Below the pieces are notes generated by a model. It was not told where the DNA came from and made no database searches. It saw only the letters and a list, made by a program, of their open reading frames with translations. From Kiritimatiellia bacterium (GTDB lineage: Bacteria; Verrucomicrobiota; Kiritimatiellia; RFP12; UBA1067), in NCBI GenBank assembly GCA_017447805.1, contig JAFSMR010000063.1:1-64000 (forward strand): DNA of 64,000 nt, given 5' to 3'. The position numbers and the translations under genes were made by a program. Below, one piece after another: positions 1 to 36,902 of this stretch (position 1 is its first letter; every line of letters begins with the position of its first letter).

Positions 1-1
1 T

Positions 2-42
2 CGCTCTCGATTGCGGCGTGTGCGGGGAGGACTGCGCCACAG
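2..42 (-). repeat. Copy F of the 41-bp signal-peptide core
   Basis: The 41 bases are identical, on the minus strand, to the cores at 27938-27978, 30060-30100 (plus) and 32810-32850. In the expressed gene at 32037-32888 this stretch codes the second half of the signal peptide (CGAVLPAHAAIES). A cassette should therefore continue leftward beyond the window edge. I cannot see it. Confidence 0.9.
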
Positions 43-49
43 AACGAAA

Positions 50-121
50 GTGATTAAAAGCAAACCTACTTTACTTTTAATCACCAACCTAGTTGACTTT
101 TAATCAGTATTTTGATACAAT
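50..121 (+). promoter_or_regulatory. Boundary block: hairpin, 23-bp repeats and a sigma70-type promoter
   Basis: A perfect 11-bp inverted repeat (GTGATTAAAAG at 50-60, CTTTTAATCAC at 74-84, 13-nt loop) is followed by a second CTTTTAATC in direct repeat with a period of about 23 bp. The second repeat overlaps a -35 TTGACT (93-98). A -10 TACAAT lies 17 nt on (116-121). The promoter points at the ATPase gene that starts at 156, so the repeats are likely its operator (inference). Nearly the same block lies next to the cores at 27938, 30060 and 4821. Confidence 0.75.
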
Positions 122-155
122 ACACGCGGCTAACAGATAAAAGGAGCGACTCGTT

Positions 156-1376
156 ATGATAAATAGATGGCAAGAGAGTAGCGTTATATCGGCGTTGAGA
201 AATCGCCGAGTAGTCAATCTTACTGGAGCTCGACAATGCGGGAAAACAACATTGGCGCAATCTCTGCCGCTAGAATCATGCAAGCGTTTCACATTGGACG
301 ACAACAAGGTTGCAGGCATAGCAAGGAATGATCCTGAAGGATTTGTAAAGCGTCTTAATAGCAAAACCCTCGTAATAGATGAAATACAAAAGGTGCCCGA
401 GTTATTGGACTACATAAAAATCAACGTAGACAGAAGCAACGATCGAGGGCAATATTTGTTGACGGGCAGCGCGAATTTGCTATTTGTCAAAGCTGTTACA
501 GATTCGCTCGCCGGAAGAGTCGGGAAAGTTCGTTTGAGGACTCTTTCGCTTGGTGAAATAAACGGCGAGAGGCCAGATTTTCTCGATGCTGCTTTCGAGA
601 GACGGTTTCCCGATGAAATCCATGGTTACGATAAGCGACGAATGATAGAACTCGCTGTTGTTGGCGGATATCCGGAAACACTCGAAATGGACCCGCGCGA
701 GCGCCGTAGCTGGTTCAAAACTTATCTAAACGATTTGCTCATGAAAGATGTGCGCGATGTTACCGAAATCCGCAAGCTTGATATTCTTAGGGATATCGCA
801 GAATGGTTGCTTATACATTCGTCGAAATTCTTTGATGTTAACGAACTTGCCACGAAAACAGGCGTAAGTAAGATTACGATTGAGAACTACATGACAGCTC
901 TGAAGGCGATGTATCTGTTCGACGAGGTGCGCCCGTGGACCAAAAACGACTATGCGAGAATCGGCAAGCGTAGCAAATATTTTGCCGCGGATTCCGCTTT
1001 GATTGCCAATATAGCTGGATGGTCAAACGAATCTATCTATATGGACGATGATAGATGCGGCAAATTGATAGAGACCTGGGCCTACCAGAATATTGCTAGT
1101 TTAGCTGATTTGAACATCGATTATGAAATCTTTCAGTACCGCGATTCATTGAAACACGAAATCGATTTCGTAGTCGAGCGTTCCGACGGTGCATTGCTTG
1201 GGATAGAGGTCAAATCAGGGACTTTCGGACCGGGCGATTTCAATCATCTAAAGTGGTTTGCGTCAAACTTGGCAAAGGGGCGCCACTTTACAGGAATAGT
1301 TCTATATTCCGGTGATCTTACACTCCCGATGGGGGAAGGCTTCTACGCAGTTCCGTTGGCCGCCATCGGCGCTTGA
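156..1376 (+). CDS. AAA-family ATPase with DUF4143 (AAA_14/DUF4143 protein)
   Basis: This 406-aa protein has a Walker A motif (GARQCGKT, residues 24-31), a Walker B motif (TLVIDEIQ, 71-78) and a sensor-like LLTGSAN. Its C-terminal DUF4143 part contains EIDFVVE...GIEVKSG, which resembles a PD-(D/E)XK nuclease core. The family is abundant in accessory DNA and its exact role is not settled. The start is supported by AAGGAG at 141-146, nine nt upstream. It reads away from core F from its own promoter at 93-121. Its stop is 3 nt before a truncated PIN toxin start. The sequence across that junction is shared with the RelB/PIN operon at 28.5 kb, so it appears to have replaced an antitoxin gene. A second member lies at 33774-35093. 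Confidence 0.85.
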   Translation: MINRWQESSVISALRNRRVVNLTGARQCGKTTLAQSLPLESCKRFTLDDNKVAGIARNDPEGFVKRLNSKTLVIDEIQKVPELLDYIKINVDRSNDRGQYLLTGSANLLFVKAVTDSLAGRVGKVRLRTLSLGEINGERPDFLDAAFERRFPDEIHGYDKRRMIELAVVGGYPETLEMDPRERRSWFKTYLNDLLMKDVRDVTEIRKLDILRDIAEWLLIHSSKFFDVNELATKTGVSKITIENYMTALKAMYLFDEVRPWTKNDYARIGKRSKYFAADSALIANIAGWSNESIYMDDDRCGKLIETWAYQNIASLADLNIDYEIFQYRDSLKHEIDFVVERSDGALLGIEVKSGTFGPGDFNHLKWFASNLAKGRHFTGIVLYSGDLTLPMGEGFYAVPLAAIGA

Positions 1377-4820: not shown

Positions 4821-4861
4821 TTGTGGCGCAGTCCTCCCCGCACACGCCGCAATCGAGAACG
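4821..4861 (+). repeat. Copy E of the 41-bp core, cassette lost
   Basis: Two mismatches to the other cores. The frame continues (AHAAIENDTVGYQI) for only a few codons after the core and then runs into the 3' end of a broken Memo-like gene on the other strand. The surface-protein cassette that should follow has been deleted. Confidence 0.85.
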
Positions 4862-22878: not shown

Positions 22879-22919
22879 CTGTGGCGCAGTCCTCCATGCA
22901 CACGCCGCAATCGAGAGCG
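22879..22919 (+). repeat. Copy A of the 41-bp core
   Basis: Two adjacent mismatches to the other cores (CATG in place of CCCG). It codes LCGAVLHAHAAIES in frame with the following cassette. Unlike the cores at 1, 4.8, 28 and 30 kb, it lacks the boundary block. The upstream in-frame codons run to a stop at 22853-22855 without a start codon. Confidence 0.85.
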
Positions 22920-23674
22920 AAACAGTGGGTTATACAACTACCTCTGTCCAGGGTAAAGTTAATGATGAGACAACCTGGTATCAAGTTGCAATACAATTTA
23001 AGGGTGTTGGCGAAACTTCTGATAAGATAAAGTTAGGTGATGCAATAAAATCAGATGGGCTGACCGCGACAACATGGCGCAATCGTAATACAGCTCCTTG
23101 TCTTCAGTTCTACAATGGGACGGGCTATGACATGTATTACTACATTTCGCAAGCATATCCCGATTCGACCAAAACAGCAGGGTCTAACACAATAACTGGT
23201 TGGGCAAACTCGGTTCAAGTTCTCGCTGAAGATACATATCTTGATGTTGGGAAGGCCTTTTGGTTTAAGGCTGATAATATTGCAAGCGGTGAAACTGTAA
23301 AGCTCACGGTTGCTGGCACTGTATCATCTGAAACGGAAAAGACAATAACTATTGGAGATTCTGCATGGACATTGGCCGCGAATCCTTTCCCTGTAGCGGT
23401 TGCAGTTAAGGATATAGGATGTTCTTTACCAGCTACTACCTGGAGAAATCGTAATTCGGCGCCATGCATACAAGTGTATAATGGCTCAGGCTATGACTTG
23501 TATTATTACATCAGCCAGGCGTACCCTGATTCGACCAAAACAGCAGGAACAAATACAATTACAGGGTGGGCGAACTCTGTGCAGGTTCTAGCTACAGACG
23601 AAATCCCCGCAGGGAGTGGTTTTTGGGTGAAAACATCAGGGACAGAAGAAGGGACACTGACCTTCTCGCTTTAA
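22879..23674 (+). CDS. Silent surface-protein cassette A (no start or 5' signal peptide)
   Basis: An open frame runs from the core (second half of a signal peptide) through IESETVGYTTTS to 23674. The mature part has two similar halves of about 110 residues, each with a CLQFYNGTGYDMYYYISQAYPDSTKTAG-like unit (CIQVYNGSGYDLYYYIS in the second), and ends KTSGTEEGTLTFSL. The same two-half plan occurs in the cassettes at 27.2, 30.1 and 32.0 kb, but residues differ widely. No start codon or promoter fits, so it is expected to be silent where it is. A GTG at about 22925 could give a signal-less protein. Function: probably a surface or matrix protein. Confidence 0.75.
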
Positions 23675-23709: not shown

Positions 23710-24255
23710 ATGAAAGGTAAACGAATGAAGAAAATTGGGATACTGGCAGGAATTGTACTTCTTGCAACATCTGTTCATGCAGCTTCTTACAGCTGGGCAT
23801 TTGATGCAGAAGGCAATGACCCGTTTGGTGGTGCTACATACTACGCCATCAACGGAGATGCGGCAACGTATGTGACGGCTCTTTCAACTCAAGGCTATGC
23901 TGCCTTTACTGAGTCGCTCGCTAACGCTGACTATACACAAAATAATCTTGATACTGCTGGAGCAGCTAGCGGTCTAGTCTCATCTGATGCTGCAGAAGTT
24001 TTTAGTATGATTGTGCTTACTAGTACAGACGCAGGGAGCACATTCTATTATGCGACAGCATCAACAGATGACTATTTGTACACCCCACCCGCCGGATCTC
24101 CTGGAGATCTTGCGATGTATGCTTTTACAGAACTTGGCGATCTAGATATGAGCACTGGAACAATTGCAAGCTCGGAAGTTGTCCCTGAGCCAACTTCGGG
24201 TTTGCTGATGTTGCTCGGACTTGCTGGCCTTGCTCTCAAGAGGAAACATTCCTAA
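23710..24255 (+). CDS. PEP-CTERM protein of cassette A
   Basis: A 181-aa protein with a signal peptide (IGILAGIVLLATSVHA) and the C-terminal sorting tail EVVPEPTSG-hydrophobic helix-LKRKHS. The mature part is acidic and rich in Ala/Thr/Tyr (TDDYLYTPPAGSPGDLAMYAFTELGDLD) and resembles the PEP-CTERM protein at 30845. PEP-CTERM tails direct proteins to an exosortase-dependent surface pathway; no exosortase is in this window. An internal start near 23725 (MKKIG) is the usual one. It is 35 bp downstream of cassette A, so the two form one unit. Confidence 0.85.
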   Translation: MKGKRMKKIGILAGIVLLATSVHAASYSWAFDAEGNDPFGGATYYAINGDAATYVTALSTQGYAAFTESLANADYTQNNLDTAGAASGLVSSDAAEVFSMIVLTSTDAGSTFYYATASTDDYLYTPPAGSPGDLAMYAFTELGDLDMSTGTIASSEVVPEPTSGLLMLLGLAGLALKRKHS

Positions 24256-26637: not shown

Positions 26638-27159
26638 TTACGCGCGTTTGCGCTTCAGCGCCAATCCAGCCAAACCGAGAAGGAGCAACACTCCCGAAGT
26701 CGGCTCAGGGACAACTTCAGATGTCATCGATACACCTGCATAGTTGTCATCAGCCCATAGGGAACCTCCGGTATTAGTATCCCATGCAACTTCATAAAAA
26801 CCAGATTCTGTTTGGTTATCACCATTATAATCAATGCCATAATAACCAGATGTTGGAAGGTTATCATCAGTACCTCCAGTTGTTGCTAGAATTGCAAACA
26901 AATAGTTACCTGAGTTCATCGTTAAATTAGCTGCGCCAGCTACTTCGCCGCCAACGAACGTTGCATTGTCCACAACTGCGCCGCCAGTTATGGCAAGAGT
27001 ATTTGAAATGGCAAAGTTATCTGCATCTGTAACCATAATAAGGTAGGCTTGGCCACCTTCGTATGCTATGTTATCAGCATAAGTTTGCCAGTTTAACGCA
27101 GCTGCGTTTGCTACATAAGCAAATATTGCCGCACCGATTAATGATAGTAGTTTTTTCAT
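26638..27159 (-). CDS. PEP-CTERM protein of cassette B
   Basis: A 173-aa protein with signal peptide MKKLLSLIGAAIFAYVANAA and the tail EVVPEPTSG-helix-LKRKRA. The mature part (LNWQTYADNIAYEGGQAYLIMVTDADNFAISNTLAITGGAVVDNATFVGG) is clearly related to the PEP-CTERM protein of the expressed unit at 31430 but diverged. It follows cassette B by 47 bp on the same strand. Expected destination: cell surface or matrix through exosortase. Confidence 0.88.
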   Translation of the reverse strand: MKKLLSLIGAAIFAYVANAAALNWQTYADNIAYEGGQAYLIMVTDADNFAISNTLAITGGAVVDNATFVGGEVAGAANLTMNSGNYLFAILATTGGTDDNLPTSGYYGIDYNGDNQTESGFYEVAWDTNTGGSLWADDNYAGVSMTSEVVPEPTSGVLLLLGLAGLALKRKRA

Positions 27160-27206: not shown

Positions 27207-27978
27207 TTATTTTGCAAGTGGTGATTTTTCGATTAGCTCACCATCCTCAGATGTTGTGGGCCTTGCATACCAGAATCCTTTCCCAGCAGGGATTGAGTCG
27301 GTTGTAGCTGTAGTTGTGGCACCAACCTTTACCCATGCAGGACCAGCAGGGAAGCGATTTGCGTTGTAGGCGCGATAGAAATATACGGTAAACGAATTTG
27401 ATTCATTGTCCCAAACCTGAATTTGATCTGAGCTTCCCGCTGCACTTCCAGAAACTGCACCACAGGTGGCCCAATCAATCGGACCATTGTTGAGTTTTAA
27501 ATCAGTTGGAAATGCAGATGAAATCATATTAAATCCAGCTGCAATGTCATGTGTATATGGGGCTGCATTCACTAAACCAGAAACATAGATTGATCCTGCT
27601 TGCGCAGTCGTAGGACGCGCAAACCATACACCTGCCCCATGAGGGATAGAATCTGTTGTTACAGTTGTTGTAGCACCGACTTTCACCCAAGCTGGACCAG
27701 CAGGAAAACGATTTGCGTTGTAGGCACGGTAGAAATAAACGGTAAATGAGGAAGTTGAAGGGTCCCATACTTGTATTTGATCCGAACTACCTGCCACGCT
27801 ACCAGGGACAAGAGCTTCTGAATTTGCAATCAAATTTGTTACAGCGAAAGAATCTCCAGTGCCGACTACCGGGCGGAAATTCAAAGCAATCATGTTAAAC
27901 CCAGGCTTGATCTCGATAGTCTGATAGCCCACCGTATCGCTCTCGATTGCGGCGTGTGCGGGGAGGACTGCGCCACAG
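27207..27978 (-). CDS. Silent surface-protein cassette B (no start or 5' signal peptide)
   Basis: The frame is open from the core (CGAVLPAHAAIES) through DTVGYQTIEIKPGFNMIALNF to 27207. It is the closest relative of the expressed gene at 32037. Both have two halves built on SDQIQVWD...YFYRAYNANRFPAGPAWVK and end GKGFWYARPTTSEDGELIE..PLAK. The upstream half of the signal peptide, the start codon and the promoter are replaced by the boundary block. A GTG at 27932 would give only a signal-less protein. It is in the same orientation as the expressed copy, so recombination between the two cores would delete the DNA between them. Confidence 0.8.
27938..27978 (-). repeat. Copy B of the 41-bp core
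   Basis: Identical over 41 bp to cores C (30060-30100), D (32810-32850) and F (2-42). It lies on the minus strand and codes the second half of the signal peptide in frame with cassette B. Confidence 0.95.
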
Positions 27979-27985
27979 AACGAAA

Positions 27986-28110
27986 GTGATTAAAAGCAAA
28001 CCTACTTTACTTTTAATCACCAACCTAGTTGACTTTTAATCAGTGTTTTTTTGATACAATATATGCAGATATCGATAAAAGAAGTCAGCGCGATTTAGGC
28101 GCGCTGGCGG
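27986..28110 (-). promoter_or_regulatory. Boundary block B
   Basis: It holds the 11-bp inverted repeat (27986-27996/28010-28020), the 23-bp direct repeats, plus-strand TTGACT (28029-28034) and TACAAT (28055-28060) with a 20-nt spacer, and a GC hairpin at about 28091-28109 that ends the minus-strand PIN operon. The promoter-like element points away from the cassette and antisense to the PIN gene. The long spacer suggests it is weak here. Confidence 0.7.
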
Positions 28111-28119
28111 ACAAACTTG

Positions 28120-28521
28120 TCAAATACCCGCGATATCGCAAAATTCGGATGGCGTTACAACAATAGCGGATTTTGGATAGTGTTTGATGTTACCAGTGAC
28201 AAGGTTGGTGTCTGCTGCAAGCGCTGTGCAGAAAAATACTTTGTCGTCTGGATCGGGAAAGGTCTCGTTTGATTCAACAGGGGTGAAATCTTCGCCTTGT
28301 TCCTTAATTCTATCAATAAGCAAAGAAACTTCTCTCGGGTCGAATTTGAAATGAATTCTTCTCAAAACTTCTTCATATTCGTCCAATATCTCTTGTGAAA
28401 ATACAGGAATAATATCGCCTTTGACAATTGCTTTTGCTATTCTTACTGTGGGCGATAGTTGATTTTTAGAAATGAACGAAGAAACGAACACATTGGTATC
28501 TATGACAGCTTTTATGCTCAT
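28120..28521 (-). CDS. PIN-domain toxin (PilT-type, putative ribonuclease)
   Basis: A 133-aa PIN protein of the COG1569 type: VIDTNVFVSSFISKNQLSPTVRIAKAIVKGDIIPVFSQEILDEYEEVL, then FPDPDDKVFFCTALAADTNLVTGNIKHYP (second acidic cluster and TGN motif), ending FCDIAGI. It is a metal-dependent RNase candidate. The start overlaps the antitoxin stop by 4 bp. Broken copies of the same gene are at 1380 and 4627. It lies directly behind boundary block B, so it would travel or be kept with silent cassette B. Confidence 0.88.
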   Translation of the reverse strand: MSIKAVIDTNVFVSSFISKNQLSPTVRIAKAIVKGDIIPVFSQEILDEYEEVLRRIHFKFDPREVSLLIDRIKEQGEDFTPVESNETFPDPDDKVFFCTALAADTNLVTGNIKHYPKSAIVVTPSEFCDIAGI

Positions 28522-29508: not shown

Positions 29509-29918
29509 GCATGATAAAAGCCGTCATAGACACAAATGTCCTTGTGTCCGCTTTCTGGACTCCAAACAGACTGTCGCCAACCGTTCGGATTGCCGATGCC
29601 ATTATCAAGGACATGTTCACTCCTCTTTATTCATTACAGATGATAGAGGAGTATCGAGAGGTCTTGTTTCGTTCGAAGTTCGGATTCTCCAAAGATGAAG
29701 TCAATAACCTCGTCGAACACATTGTAAAGTATGGCGAGCATAAGGAACCAACCGAATCCGCCGCCAATTTCCCAGACCCTGACGACAAGGTGTTCTTCTG
29801 TACAGCCTTGGCTGCAAGTTCAGACAATCCACTTCTAGTGACGGGCAACGCAAAGCATTATCCACCGGCAGATTTTGTTGTAAGCCCCGCTGAATTTTGC
29901 AACATATTGGGTATTTGA
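29505..29918 (+). CDS. PIN-domain toxin (PilT-type, putative ribonuclease)
   Basis: A 137-aa paralog of the toxin at 28120: IKAVIDTNVLVSAFWTPNRLSPTVRIADAIIKD, FPDPDDKVFFCTALAASSDNPLLVTGNAKHYPPADFVVSPAEFCNILGI. Acidic PIN residues are present. It ends 17 bp before the terminator hairpin of boundary block C and so lies immediately behind silent cassette C. The B and C toxin operons are back to back and read outward toward the two cores. Confidence 0.9.
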   Translation: MSMIKAVIDTNVLVSAFWTPNRLSPTVRIADAIIKDMFTPLYSLQMIEEYREVLFRSKFGFSKDEVNNLVEHIVKYGEHKEPTESAANFPDPDDKVFFCTALAASSDNPLLVTGNAKHYPPADFVVSPAEFCNILGI

Positions 29919-29934
29919 CAAGTTGTGTTTCTAG

Positions 29935-30052
29935 CGCGCCTAAACCGCGCTGACTTCTTTTATCGATATCTGCGTGTATTGTATCAAAAAAATACCGATT
30001 AAAAGTCAACTAGGTTGGTGATTAAAAGTAAAGTAGGTTTGTTTTTAATCAC
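29935..30052 (+). promoter_or_regulatory. Boundary block C
   Basis: Terminator-like GC hairpin (about 29935-29953, CGCGCC..CCGCGC type, T tract after it), minus-strand TACAAT element near 29980, direct repeats of GATTAAAAGT-N4-TAGGTTG, and the 11-bp inverted repeat (30018-30028/30042-30052, one G·T pair). The block is close to a mirror image of block B, so 27938-30100 is bounded by inverted repeats of roughly 170 bp. Confidence 0.75.
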
Positions 30053-30059
30053 TTTCGTT

Positions 30060-30100
30060 CTGTGGCGCAGTCCTCCCCGCACACGCCGCAATCGAGAGCG
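30060..30100 (+). repeat. Copy C of the 41-bp core
   Basis: Identical to cores B, D and F. It is in inverted orientation to core D, 2.7 kb away. Inversion between C and D would place cassette C behind the promoter and signal peptide at 32850-33020. Confidence 0.95.
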
Positions 30101-30798
30101 GAACAGTGGGATATGACACGATTGGTTTAACAGCGAATACTTGGTATCTTGTTGCTCCTCAATTCAAACAAGTTTCCGCAACAACAGATATAGTGGATCT
30201 ATTAGGGAATGTTACTTTTACTGGTCTTCAAGCTGTTCCTTTTGCAAGTAGAGCTACTGGTGCGCAAATTCAGATATATGATTCGGCAAATGAAAAATAT
30301 TCCATTTATTATTACATCAGTGACAGCAAAAATGGAACTGCTTGGGCTAAATCAAAAAATGTTGTACCTGAAACTATTCCTTTGAGTTTGGGTGAAGGAT
30401 TTTGGTTTAAGACAGGCACATTGGAAGGCGATACAGCAAGTTTGAGAGTATTAGGCTCTGTCAAGTCTGAAATATCAAAGACAATTAATGTTGGAGTTGA
30501 TGGCGAGTGGATGATAGCTTGTAATCCATATCCAGTGGCACTTTCTTGGGATAATGTAACAACAAGTTTGGAAGCTAAACCTTTTGCAAATCGCAACACT
30601 GACTGTGCCCAAATACAGGTATATGATGCAGCAAATGAAAAATACTCAATCTACTACTATATTAGTGACAGTAAGAATGGAACCGCATGGGCAAAGACAA
30701 AGAATACTCTAGCCACAGGAACAATGGCAGAAGCTGGTCAGGCCTTTTGGGTTAAAGCTCCAACTTCAGGTTCTTTGACTTTCACATTCTCTAATTAA
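30060..30798 (+). CDS. Silent surface-protein cassette C (no start or 5' signal peptide)
   Basis: The frame is open from the core through AAIESGTVGYDTIGLTANTWYL to 30798. Two halves share AQIQIYDSANEKYSIYYYISDSKNGTAWAK (second copy AQIQVYDAANEKYSIYYYISDSKNGTAWAK). It ends APTSGSLTFTFSN. It is nearer to cassette A than to B or D. The codon before the core region runs into TAA (30046-30048) with no start, so it should be silent in this orientation. A GTG at 30106 could make a signal-less product. Confidence 0.8.
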
Positions 30799-30844
30799 TT
30801 TTGTGCGTTGCATGGTGTGACGCGCAGAAAAAGGAAACAAAAAA

Positions 30845-31354
30845 ATGAAAAAACTAATTGTATTGCTTGGACTAGCACTAATGGCTGTCTCAGCAAAAGC
30901 AGCCACTGCAAACTGGATGGTTGACTTAGGAACAGACACATATGATACATGGTCATTCTATGTGTTTAATGGCACTCAAGCTAGTACGCTAGCAAATTAT
31001 CTAACAACAGGCAAGATAGCTGAATTCAATACTGAAATTGCCAATTATGGTAGTTCAGCAGTGGCATTGGATTCCGGCTATGCTGAAGACGGTATTAGTA
31101 ATGTAGGTGAAGCAATCAGTGCGCTACTATATAATTCACTGGAACCAGATGCAACGTTTTATTATATTGCATCCGCTAGCACAGAAGGGTATACTTATGC
31201 TCCACCTGCTAGCGCGCCAGATCAATTATACTGGGAACTTACTGATTTTGCTGAAGGAACTGTCGGCAGCTCTGAAGTTGTTCCTGAGCCGACTTCGGGC
31301 TTGCTGATGTTGCTTGGCCTTGCTGGTCTTGCTCTCAAGCGCAAGAAAGCGTAA
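30845..31354 (+). CDS. PEP-CTERM protein of cassette C
   Basis: A 169-aa protein with signal peptide MKKLIVLLGLALMAVSAKAA and tail EVVPEPTSG-helix-LKRKKA. The mature part (TANWMVDLGTDTYDTWSFYVFNGTQ...YIASASTEGYTYAPPASAPDQLYW) resembles the PEP-CTERM protein of unit A. It is 46 bp downstream of cassette C, same strand. Confidence 0.88.
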   Translation: MKKLIVLLGLALMAVSAKAATANWMVDLGTDTYDTWSFYVFNGTQASTLANYLTTGKIAEFNTEIANYGSSAVALDSGYAEDGISNVGEAISALLYNSLEPDATFYYIASASTEGYTYAPPASAPDQLYWELTDFAEGTVGSSEVVPEPTSGLLMLLGLAGLALKRKKA

Positions 31355-31380
31355 GCTTAGCAAAAACGCAATAACAACAA

Positions 31381-31412
31381 AGAAACCGCCAATTCGAGGC
31401 GGTTTCTTTGTA
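31381..31412. terminator. Bidirectional terminator between units C and D
   Basis: A perfect 10-bp stem (AGAAACCGCC/GGCGGTTTCT) with a 7-nt loop. T-rich DNA follows on the minus strand and a short T run on the plus strand. It serves both converging units and lies inside the segment that would invert. Confidence 0.85.
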
Positions 31413-31429
31413 TGTGCTAGATATATAGC

Positions 31430-31981
31430 TTAGGCTCTTTTACGCTTCAGCGCCAATCCAGCCAAACCGAGAAGGAGCAATACTCCCGAAGTCGGCTCAG
31501 GGACAACGTCCGTAGACATCGATGCACCTGCGAAGCCTTCATCGGCAAATAGTGACGCACCTGTGTCTGAACTCCATGTAACTTCATAGAATCCTGAGTT
31601 CGTTCCATTTCCACCGTCTGTATCGACAGCATATGTTCCGGCTGTAGGAGTGGATGAACTAGATCCATCGGAAGTCGTTATGATGGCAAAGTAATATGTG
31701 GTACCATCAACGAGACTGCCTGTTTCTTGCCATGTACCATACACAGACCCTCCTTGAAATGCCGCGTTGTCAACGATTGTGCCGCCAGTTACAGCAAGCG
31801 AATCCGATACTGCGAATGTTGATGAGTCTGTTACTTGAACGAGATAAGCCATGCCGCCTGTAATCCAGTCGGAATCAGCACTACCATCGTTTATGTAGGC
31901 CCAGGTTGACCATTGTAGCGCAGCGGCATTGGCGGCAAGGCCAAGCAGAACTGCACTCATTGCTATTAGTAGTTTCTTCAT
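31430..31981 (-). CDS. PEP-CTERM protein of the expressed unit D
   Basis: A 183-aa protein with signal peptide MKKLLIAMSAVLLGLAANAA and tail DVVPEPTSG-helix-LKRKRA. The mature part (LQWSTWAYINDGSADSDWITGGMAYLVQVTDSSTFAVSDSLAVTGGTIVDNAAFQGG) is related to the unit B protein. It lies 55 bp after the expressed cassette gene and is probably transcribed with it from the promoter at 32991-33020. Confidence 0.9.
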   Translation of the reverse strand: MKKLLIAMSAVLLGLAANAAALQWSTWAYINDGSADSDWITGGMAYLVQVTDSSTFAVSDSLAVTGGTIVDNAAFQGGSVYGTWQETGSLVDGTTYYFAIITTSDGSSSSTPTAGTYAVDTDGGNGTNSGFYEVTWSSDTGASLFADEGFAGASMSTDVVPEPTSGVLLLLGLAGLALKRKRA

Positions 31982-32036
31982 TTATTCGTTTCCGTTCTTT
32001 TTTCTTGCGCGGCAGACCATCCACCGCACTAAATCA

Positions 32037-32888
32037 TTATTCTGCAAGAGGAGAAGCTTCAATAAGCTCACCGCCCTCAGATGATGAAGGTCTAGCATAC
32101 CAAAATCCCTTGCCGGCAGGAATTTTGTCAGCAGTTTTAGTGGAAGCCGCAGTAGTTTTTACCCATGCTGGGCCAAGCAAAAACTTGTTAGGATTGGTTG
32201 CTTTGTAAGCACGATAGAAGTAAGTAGTGAACTTTGTACCATCCCAAACCTGAATCTGGTCGGAGTTACCCGCAGCTGTTCCAGCAACAGCGCCACAAGC
32301 GACCCAGTCAATCGGGCATGTCTGCGCTACGCCACCATTTTCCTCTGCGGTCAATGTGTTGAGTGGCATATCTACAGGGAAAGCCGAAGAAATCATGTTG
32401 AAGCCAGATGCAATATCATGCGTATAAGCTGTTGCATTTACCAAGCCCGAAACAGTGATTGTAGCACTTTCAGGTGCCGTTGATGGACGAGCAAACCAAA
32501 CACCAGCACCGCGAGGAATAGTATCTGTTGTAATAGTTGAAGCTGCAGTTGTCTTTACCCAAGCTGGACCGAGCAAAAATTTGTTAGGATTGGTTGCTTT
32601 GTAAGCACGATAGAAGTATGTAGTGAACTTTGTACCATCCCAAACCTGAATCTGATCAGAGTTGCCTGCAGCTGTTCCAGCAATAAGATCAGCTGTATTG
32701 GAGATGAAGTTCGTTATGGCAAACCCTTCCGAGCCATCAACTGGCTGGAAGTTGAAGGCAATCATATTAAAGCCGTTGATAACTTCAATGTTATTATAGC
32801 CTACCGTATCGCTCTCGATTGCGGCGTGTGCGGGGAGGACTGCGCCACAGAGCGCCGCAAATCCAAGCGTTAGCATTAATTTCTTCAT
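32037..32888 (-). CDS. Expressed surface protein, cassette D with complete signal peptide
   Basis: A 283-aa protein. The signal peptide is MKKLMLTLGFAALCGAVLPAHAA (cleavage after AHA). The mature part starts IESDTVGYNNIEVINGFNMIAFNF and has two halves sharing SDQIQVWDGTKFTTYFYRAYKATNPNKFLLGPAWVKTTAAST almost exactly. It ends FWYARPSSSEGGELIEASPLAE. I know no named family; it is an all-β-type secreted protein. AAGAAGGAACG lies before the ATG. The 41-bp core (32810-32850) falls inside the signal-peptide coding region, so this is the one locus where a cassette is joined to start codon, RBS and promoter. Confidence 0.9.
   Translation of the reverse strand: MKKLMLTLGFAALCGAVLPAHAAIESDTVGYNNIEVINGFNMIAFNFQPVDGSEGFAITNFISNTADLIAGTAAGNSDQIQVWDGTKFTTYFYRAYKATNPNKFLLGPAWVKTTAASTITTDTIPRGAGVWFARPSTAPESATITVSGLVNATAYTHDIASGFNMISSAFPVDMPLNTLTAEENGGVAQTCPIDWVACGAVAGTAAGNSDQIQVWDGTKFTTYFYRAYKATNPNKFLLGPAWVKTTAASTKTADKIPAGKGFWYARPSSSEGGELIEASPLAE
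32810..32850 (-). repeat. Copy D of the 41-bp core, inside the expressed gene
   Basis: The core codes CGAVLPAHAAIES of the expressed protein. Upstream of it (32851-32888) is the first half of the signal peptide, unique to this locus. Downstream DNA is cassette-specific. Confidence 0.95.
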
Positions 32889-32990: not shown

Positions 32991-33020
32991 ATTGTACCAA
33001 ATATTTGCGTCTCCGGTCAA
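32991..33020 (-). promoter_or_regulatory. Promoter of the expression locus
   Basis: -35 TTGACC (33015-33020), 18-nt spacer, -10 TACAAT (32991-32996) on the minus strand. The leader is about 100 nt and contains a hairpin TTTCCGG/CCGGAAA at about 32937-32955, which could affect mRNA stability or translation. Confidence 0.65.
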
Positions 33021-33381
33021 TAGCAGAAATTAACTTTTTATATCGCATTATATAAGATAATATTCCGAAACCTCTGTCATTTATGGATTTTCTTTCAATT
33101 AACGCCTTAAAATAATATTTTTGATTAGACAGGCTCTCGCACTCGACATAGCCATTCGTGCCCCGCCCTTCCAGCTCGCGCGCCCTTTCGCGCGCCTGCG
33201 CGCTGTTTCCATGTTCAGGGCGCCTGCGGCACGTTCAGATGTTCAGAAGATTTAGTTGGTGTTTCGAGGTGGAGAGTTTAGATAGCCGTGTAGAGGTGGA
33301 GAAGTGAAGAATTTTTAGTTGTAGTATGTAGTTGTAGTCGTAGAATGGAATTTCCTATAATCAAGACTCAATATCACAAAA
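33021..33381. other. Gene-free stretch with a GC-rich dispersed repeat
   Basis: 33160-33235 carries GC-rich palindromic sequence (GCGCGCC...GGCGCGC, CAGGGCGCCTGCGGC) of the same kind as at 33605-33640, 33725-33775, 35260-35340, 36813-36890 and 38110-38180. A TTTAGATAGCCGTGTAGAGGTG phrase at 33276-33300 recurs at 36205-36230. No gene is visible. Confidence 0.5.
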
Positions 33382-33453
33382 CAACCGGTCGTTTTCCAAT
33401 AATCAAAACAGAACGACGGGAAACAACCAGTTGTTTTTCAATAATCAAAACCT
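33346..33453 (+). other. Small repeat-coding open frame, 35 codons
   Basis: ATG at 33346 opens MEFPIIKTQYHKTTGRFPIIKT and ends after a third SIIKT. It overlaps the first two 42-bp repeats. No clear ribosome binding site is present, so it may only reflect the repeat. Confidence 0.25.
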
Positions 33454-33591
33454 AATATCCCAAATCAACCAGTTGTTTTTCGATAATCAAAACCAAATAT
33501 CCCAAATCAACCAGTTGTTTTTCGATAATCAAAACCGGACGACGGAATGCAACAGGTTGATTTGCAATATTGGAAATTGATTATTGAAATG
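33382..33591. repeat. 42-bp tandem repeat array (5 units)
   Basis: Units start at 33382, 33424, 33466, 33508 and 33550. Each starts with a near-palindrome CAAC(C/A)(A/G)GT(T/C)G and contains TTTTCNATAATCAAAAC. Units 2 and 3 are nearly identical and the last is diverged. There are no spacers. Two other arrays in this window (36657, 58048) have the same 42-bp period with different sequence. Confidence 0.85.
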
Positions 33592-36589: not shown

Positions 36590-36656
36590 GGGCGGCTAAA
36601 GCGCCGTTCAGGGCGCCATTTTCGATTTTGATTTCGATTTTTGACGCGCGAAAAGG

Positions 36657-36824
36657 CCGCCACTTTTCTGGCGGCACTTGCGCGGCAGCGCGAAACCTCC
36701 GCCACTTTTCTGGCGGCACTTTTGCGGTGGTGCGAAACCTCCGCCACTTTTCTAGCGGCACCTGCGCGGCGGCGCGAAACCTCCGCCACTTTTCTGGCGG
36801 CACCTGCGCGGCGACGCGGGGCGG
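36657..36824. repeat. 42-bp tandem repeat array (4 units) with internal hairpin
   Basis: Units start at 36657, 36699, 36741 and 36783. Each contains the hairpin GCCGCCA-CTTTTC-TGGCGGC (one unit has TAGCGGC) followed by CTTGCGCGGCNGCGCGAAACCT. Both strands are open across it by chance. It lies between a broken RelB gene and the Fic gene and is flanked by GC-rich dispersed repeats at 36590-36620 and 36815-36890. Confidence 0.85.
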
Positions 36825-36902
36825 TGAGACCTGCCCTGAACGCGCCGGAGGCGCCCTGAACTTTCTGAACACCTGAACTTTCTAAACGGCGCGAAGCGGC
36901 AG

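Follow-up and report, generated by a model that had tools for sequence, protein, structure and literature searches.

Switching of the shufflon or inverton kind is already known. In the R64-type shufflon, the tyrosine recombinase Rci acts at sfx sites, and a constant N-terminal part is joined to alternative downstream parts. Inversion of sap in Campylobacter fetus works through a long shared 5′ region and is largely RecA-dependent, and pilin inversion in Moraxella is carried out by Piv, an enzyme related to the IS110 transposases. Shufflon-like systems have been surveyed (PMC11852207), and short invertons with a promoter-like motif have been described near PEP-CTERM genes in Akkermansia (PMC11892184).

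Here we describe an array of genes in the window, by which we mean the whole 64,000-nucleotide stretch analysed (positions 1 to 64,000 of contig C56 in G000, a Kiritimatiellia draft genome of 2.25 Mb in 74 contigs). The array resembles the R64 shufflon in its constant N-terminus, alternative downstream parts, several inverted sites, and tyrosine recombinase, but its constant part amounts to just a promoter and a signal peptide, inversion would exchange an entire mature protein together with a second gene, and the recombinase appears to belong to a divergent family. With C. fetus sap it shares a single promoter, silent surface-protein cassettes with a conserved 5′ end, and a product that inversion would switch; unlike in sap, the shared part measures about 42 bp, lies at a fixed codon, and is accompanied by recombinase genes. 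The likeness to Akkermansia lies in predicted invertible DNA near PEP-CTERM-associated genes within the Verrucomicrobiota, but here coding units would be exchanged behind a fixed promoter. As in Moraxella, inversion would connect different 3′ parts to one invariant 5′ gene end; an IS110/Piv-type transposase was, however, rejected as a candidate enzyme, because searching G000 for the IS110 Transposase_20 family gave no match. No such arrangement was described in the literature searched on phase variation in Kiritimatiellae or involving PEP-CTERM proteins, and within the literature searched the type of cassette, the junction in the signal peptide, and the family of the recombinase all seem to be undescribed.

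One expressed and several silent units share a short core

Each unit of the array pairs a VGY-family gene with a PEP-CTERM gene downstream of it and is associated with a core sequence (Table 1). Between C and D, only D has a start codon, a signal peptide, and an upstream promoter match, and no in-frame ATG, GTG, or TTG precedes the V of VGY in silent units B and C. The whole genome holds seven copies of the core: A, B, C, D, E, W1, and one at the end of contig C59. They are 90 to 100% identical, with largely unrelated flanks, and the sequences upstream of them form three groups, namely, a leader common to B, C, W1, and E, a leader common to A and the C59 copy, and the signal peptide of D. Cores A, B, C, and D delimit several predicted invertible segments with a constant N-terminus, the arrangement of a shufflon. 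Modelling of protein D gave a structure of low quality (pLDDT 55), which was left unused.

Table 1. Features of the array, in order of position in the window
Feature	Position	Strand	Remarks or basis
Core W1, at contig end	2..42	-	sequence
Core E, then truncated VGY remnant	4822..4858	+	sequence
Core A	22879..22919	+	39/41 identical
Silent VGY unit A	22925..23674	+	sequence
PEP-CTERM partner of A	23710..24255	+	sequence
PEP-CTERM partner of B	26638..27159	-	sequence
Silent VGY unit B	27207..27932	-	70% identical to D
Core B	27938..27978	-	orientation as D; 49 bp exact with D
Core C	30060..30100 (42-bp version, 30059-30100)	+	left border of predicted invertible segment; 42-bp exact inverted match to D
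Silent VGY unit C	30106..30798	+	frame open from 30052; without start codon or signal peptide
PEP-CTERM partner of C	30845..31354	+	complete, no own promoter identified; TIGR02595, 26.6 bits (cut-off 16)
Bidirectional terminator hairpin between D and C operons	31377..31411	.	folding
PEP-CTERM partner of D	31430..31981	-	TIGR02595, 25.4 bits (cut-off 16)
Expressed VGY-family protein D	32037..32888	-	283 aa; signal peptide MKKLMLTLGFAALCGAVLPAHA; ATG start
Core D	32810..32850 (42-bp version, 32810-32851)	-	right border of predicted invertible segment; within signal-peptide codons of expressed gene
Sigma-70-like promoter upstream of D, TTGACC-18-TACAAT	32991..33020	-	consensus match only, 10/12

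Contigs C56 and C59 both stop at the same base, just behind the core. Because the repeat common to the two contig ends is only 43 bp long, this break fits with mixed junctions in the population, as an indirect sign that falls short of proof.

Inversion in silico exchanges the products in frame

Cores C and D, for which the original prediction gave an inverted identity of 41 bp, share 42 identical bases in inverted orientation, TCTGTGGCGCAGTCCTCCCCGCACACGCCGCAATCGAGAGCG; the chance expectation for such a pair in 64 kb of random sequence is about 4e-16. The interior consists of two convergent operons, each a VGY-family gene and then a PEP-CTERM gene. The bidirectional terminator on which they had been proposed to converge was recovered as a strong hairpin on both strands, with energies of -24.5 and -25.7 kcal/mol and z values of -7.3 and -8.1. 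It had further been proposed that inversion would place the silent unit behind the signal peptide in frame, and simulated inversion of 30060-32850 indeed gave an in-frame exported-type protein of 258 aa from unit C, beginning MKKLMLTLGFAALCGAVLPAHAAIESGTVGYDTIGL... Beyond the original prediction, inversion between A and D in silico also gave an in-frame exported-type protein (277 aa), and the gene of a candidate recombinase lies elsewhere in the genome, beyond the window. The locus shows two of the marks of an inverton, flanking inverted repeats (42 bp, exact) and an in-frame change of product in silico, for both C and A. The prediction of a 2.8-kb flip that would exchange C and D in frame is supported, but the locus is a multi-unit array and not only a two-state switch.

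The array recurs in related genomes

A VGY-family protein profile matched 81 of 115 genomes of the same taxonomic family. Many units at the loci retrieved have neither start nor signal peptide, beginning instead at a fixed point, and in many species the silent frames are open over 230 to 250 codons, with intact PEP-CTERM partners. G050 repeats the layout of the window (silent +, silent -, silent +, expressed -), with the expressed unit at the same end, and its array has its own shared core and terminator hairpin. The symmetry that was originally taken to be that of a functional flip is upheld by this recurrence of the same layout in species with unrelated upstream sequences and cores of their own. 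The core sequence is peculiar to each species: at comparable length, G000 core DNA was absent from the 145 relatives searched, so the core is species-specific. A unit expressed in one species can have a close but silent homologue in another (G050/G017, 76%; G004/G002, 70%). Automatic "expressed" labels of G002:8097 and G160:C1:12856 were judged false and corrected by hand, and two of the four units in G017 carry neither label, the contig starting in the core or a run of N preceding the unit.

The junctions are of two types. Class I junctions, the type seen in the window, fall in the signal-peptide codons LC[GA][AT]V, and those of class II fall right at the VGY codons. The sequence shared between units starts near the LC[GA][AT]V codons in about a dozen genomes, at a distance to VGY that varies by several residues; the motif count was drawn from sequences chosen by pattern, which makes its invariant positions circular, and these were excluded as evidence. 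Convergent class I pairs stand 2.66 to 2.87 kb apart in G000, G017, G029, G050, G085, and G158.

Silent units show a strong preference for standing inverted to expressed ones. Of the 14 genomes with both kinds on one contig, 13 have the closest silent unit in inverted orientation to the expressed unit (counted by hand), and adjacent pairs of units comprise 26 convergent, 16 tandem, and 7 divergent ones, counts that take in related genomes and are not fully independent. Contig ends, counted with the same dependence among genomes, cluster ahead of unit starts: 14 of 66 cases have one in the 300 bp upstream, compared with 2 of 84 on the 3′ side (p = 0.0003). Contigs of other species that stop at or inside the junction include those at loci L142 (G009:C210, end 12657) and L125 (G017:C34, start).

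Two recombinase families accompany the two junction types

A protein of ~300 aa adjoins class I units and has no significant Pfam or NCBIfam match. Alignment with hhalign related this class I recombinase to a PF00589 family (E = 1.5e-5), and the G000 copy, intact and at C51:692-1663, matched a PHROG integrase family (E = 7e-6). The R, K, R, and Y positions of tyrosine recombinases (MRNGD, HKT, YELRK, and RYYADP) are found in alignment A5 and in the C51 copy, a catalytic reading that is clear for these four residues and not for the two His. In a PF00589 search, the C51 protein was not among the G000 matches and five relatives gave no match, and a PDB sequence search with the class I recombinase profile likewise returned none. 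Contig C51 also carries a MurC-MurB fusion gene, which, like the PEP-CTERM genes, would be in keeping with the Verrucomicrobiota/Kiritimatiellota group.

Two relatives of the class I recombinase were found in IMG/VR, at L202:1403-2623 and L203:5749-7026. The top Foldseek matches of a low-confidence model of one of these viral relatives were nearly all tyrosine recombinases, with lambda Int, XerA, Tn1549 Int, and Cre among the matches. Both viral sequences carry an extra N-terminal part, which suggests that the class I recombinase may have originated from a phage integrase.

Class I recombinase-like genes were found in 42 of the 115 genomes, G000 included, and in 10 they lie no more than 500 bp from the core side of a unit (G029, G017, G158, G085, G001, G052, where a fragment lies at the contig start, G022, G170, G159, and G046). 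With genomes assigned to class I or II by hand, 11 of the 12 that have class I silent units encode the class I recombinase, compared with 3 of the 20 that have class II units only (p = 3e-5). A second recombinase family, of the PF00589 type, adjoins class II units, and each family pairs with its own junction type (8/8 versus 9/9 silent units, hand count). Serine recombinases were rejected as candidates: three occur in G000, none of them in the window, and they are absent from most array-bearing relatives.

Integrons invite comparison, as class II relatives have a recombinase beside the unit and several units in the same orientation. However, the class II enzyme scored only 21 bits against the integron integrase model TIGR02249 (cut-off, 265), the class I enzyme gave no match to it, and inverted pairs are typical here. 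At L120/L121 (G002:C14:5000-36000), six silent class II units are all inverted relative to one expressed unit, and ahead of most of the silent units lies a related ~75-bp element containing CTGCAC repeats, in an integron-like layout.

Probable site-specific switching and its alternatives

We think it probable that the array serves site-specific, shufflon-like switching of an exported two-gene surface operon by a tyrosine recombinase. D would be the expression site, supplying the promoter, the start codon, and the signal peptide, and the other units are complete except that they begin at the core, toward the end of the signal-peptide codons. The enzyme recombining inverted cores would be a tyrosine recombinase of the divergent family, most likely the product of C51:692-1663; inversion between C and D (2.8 kb) or between A and D (about 10 kb) would then set the fixed promoter and signal peptide in front of a different unit, with the terminator keeping the two operons separate. 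Inversion between A and B would reshuffle the silent store. Unit B could be switched in only after a prior A/B or B/C inversion, because core B is direct to D. From the observed anatomy of the array, the in-frame products, the recurrence in relatives, and the association with recombinase genes, we infer that inversion takes place within cells and that the C51 enzyme acts on the cores; the product would presumably be displayed on the surface through PEP-CTERM sorting. Several points count against switching: recombination between B and D, being direct, would lead to deletion and not to switching, core sequences vary from species to species, the class I recombinase gene of G000 is not next to the array, and in G050 (82% complete) the array is present and no recombinase was detected.

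Some of these points would suit an exchange in which the short conserved 5′ core serves general, RecA-dependent homologous recombination or gene conversion and the recombinases are bystanders. The identical cores of G000 and G050 span 42 to 50 bases, the differences between species are such as homogenisation would give, and the recombinase is unlinked in the one genome and was not found in the other. We nevertheless regard this account as unlikely, since silent and expressed units of G086 share only about 17 contiguous bases and one silent unit of G016 shares about 16, about a dozen genomes have the left border close to the same codons, and junction type follows recombinase family in the hand count given above. 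Less probable again is that the units are fossils, that is, duplicated and 5′-truncated copies kept by recent descent with no ongoing switching. The truncated remnant after core E and the divergence of silent units in their mature parts speak for such decay, but the long open frames and intact PEP-CTERM partners of silent units, a nearly identical core between diverged flanks, and the recurrence of inverted orientation speak against it. We give scarcely any credence to the notion that the core reflects protein constraint on the end of the signal peptide only and that every unit is expressed on its own; although part of the core codes for the cleavage region and the N-terminus of the mature protein, its DNA is identical in B and C, where it is untranslated because no start codon precedes VGY.

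Beyond site-specific switching at this locus, we lean, with less assurance, toward a family-wide system of antigenic variation, in which two tyrosine-recombinase families, one of them invisible to Pfam, would each use their own junction between signal peptide and mature protein to swap whole PEP-CTERM operons from silent stores into one expression site. If true, this would amount to programmed surface switching across a bacterial family known mainly from draft genomes, and it would provide a role for an unannotated recombinase family and a reason for assembly breaks at these genes. Surface variation through PEP-CTERM proteins would become testable, for example, in phage or host interaction, and a junction at the signal-peptide border would represent a modular route to exchanging exported proteins.

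Other features around the cores

An inverted repeat of 288 nt (84%), at window positions 27916-28203 and 29835-30122, takes in cores B and C together with their leaders and the terminal parts of two PIN toxin genes, so that two toxin-antitoxin pairs form mirror images between the units. Tandem repeats of 42 bp form two arrays, one upstream of the expressed unit (33351-33560) and one further right (36648-36857). An AAA_14/DUF4143 ATPase gene (window 1-1376) directly adjoins core W1, and its leader, which is common to cores B, C, and E, contains a promoter-like sequence that faces away from the core.
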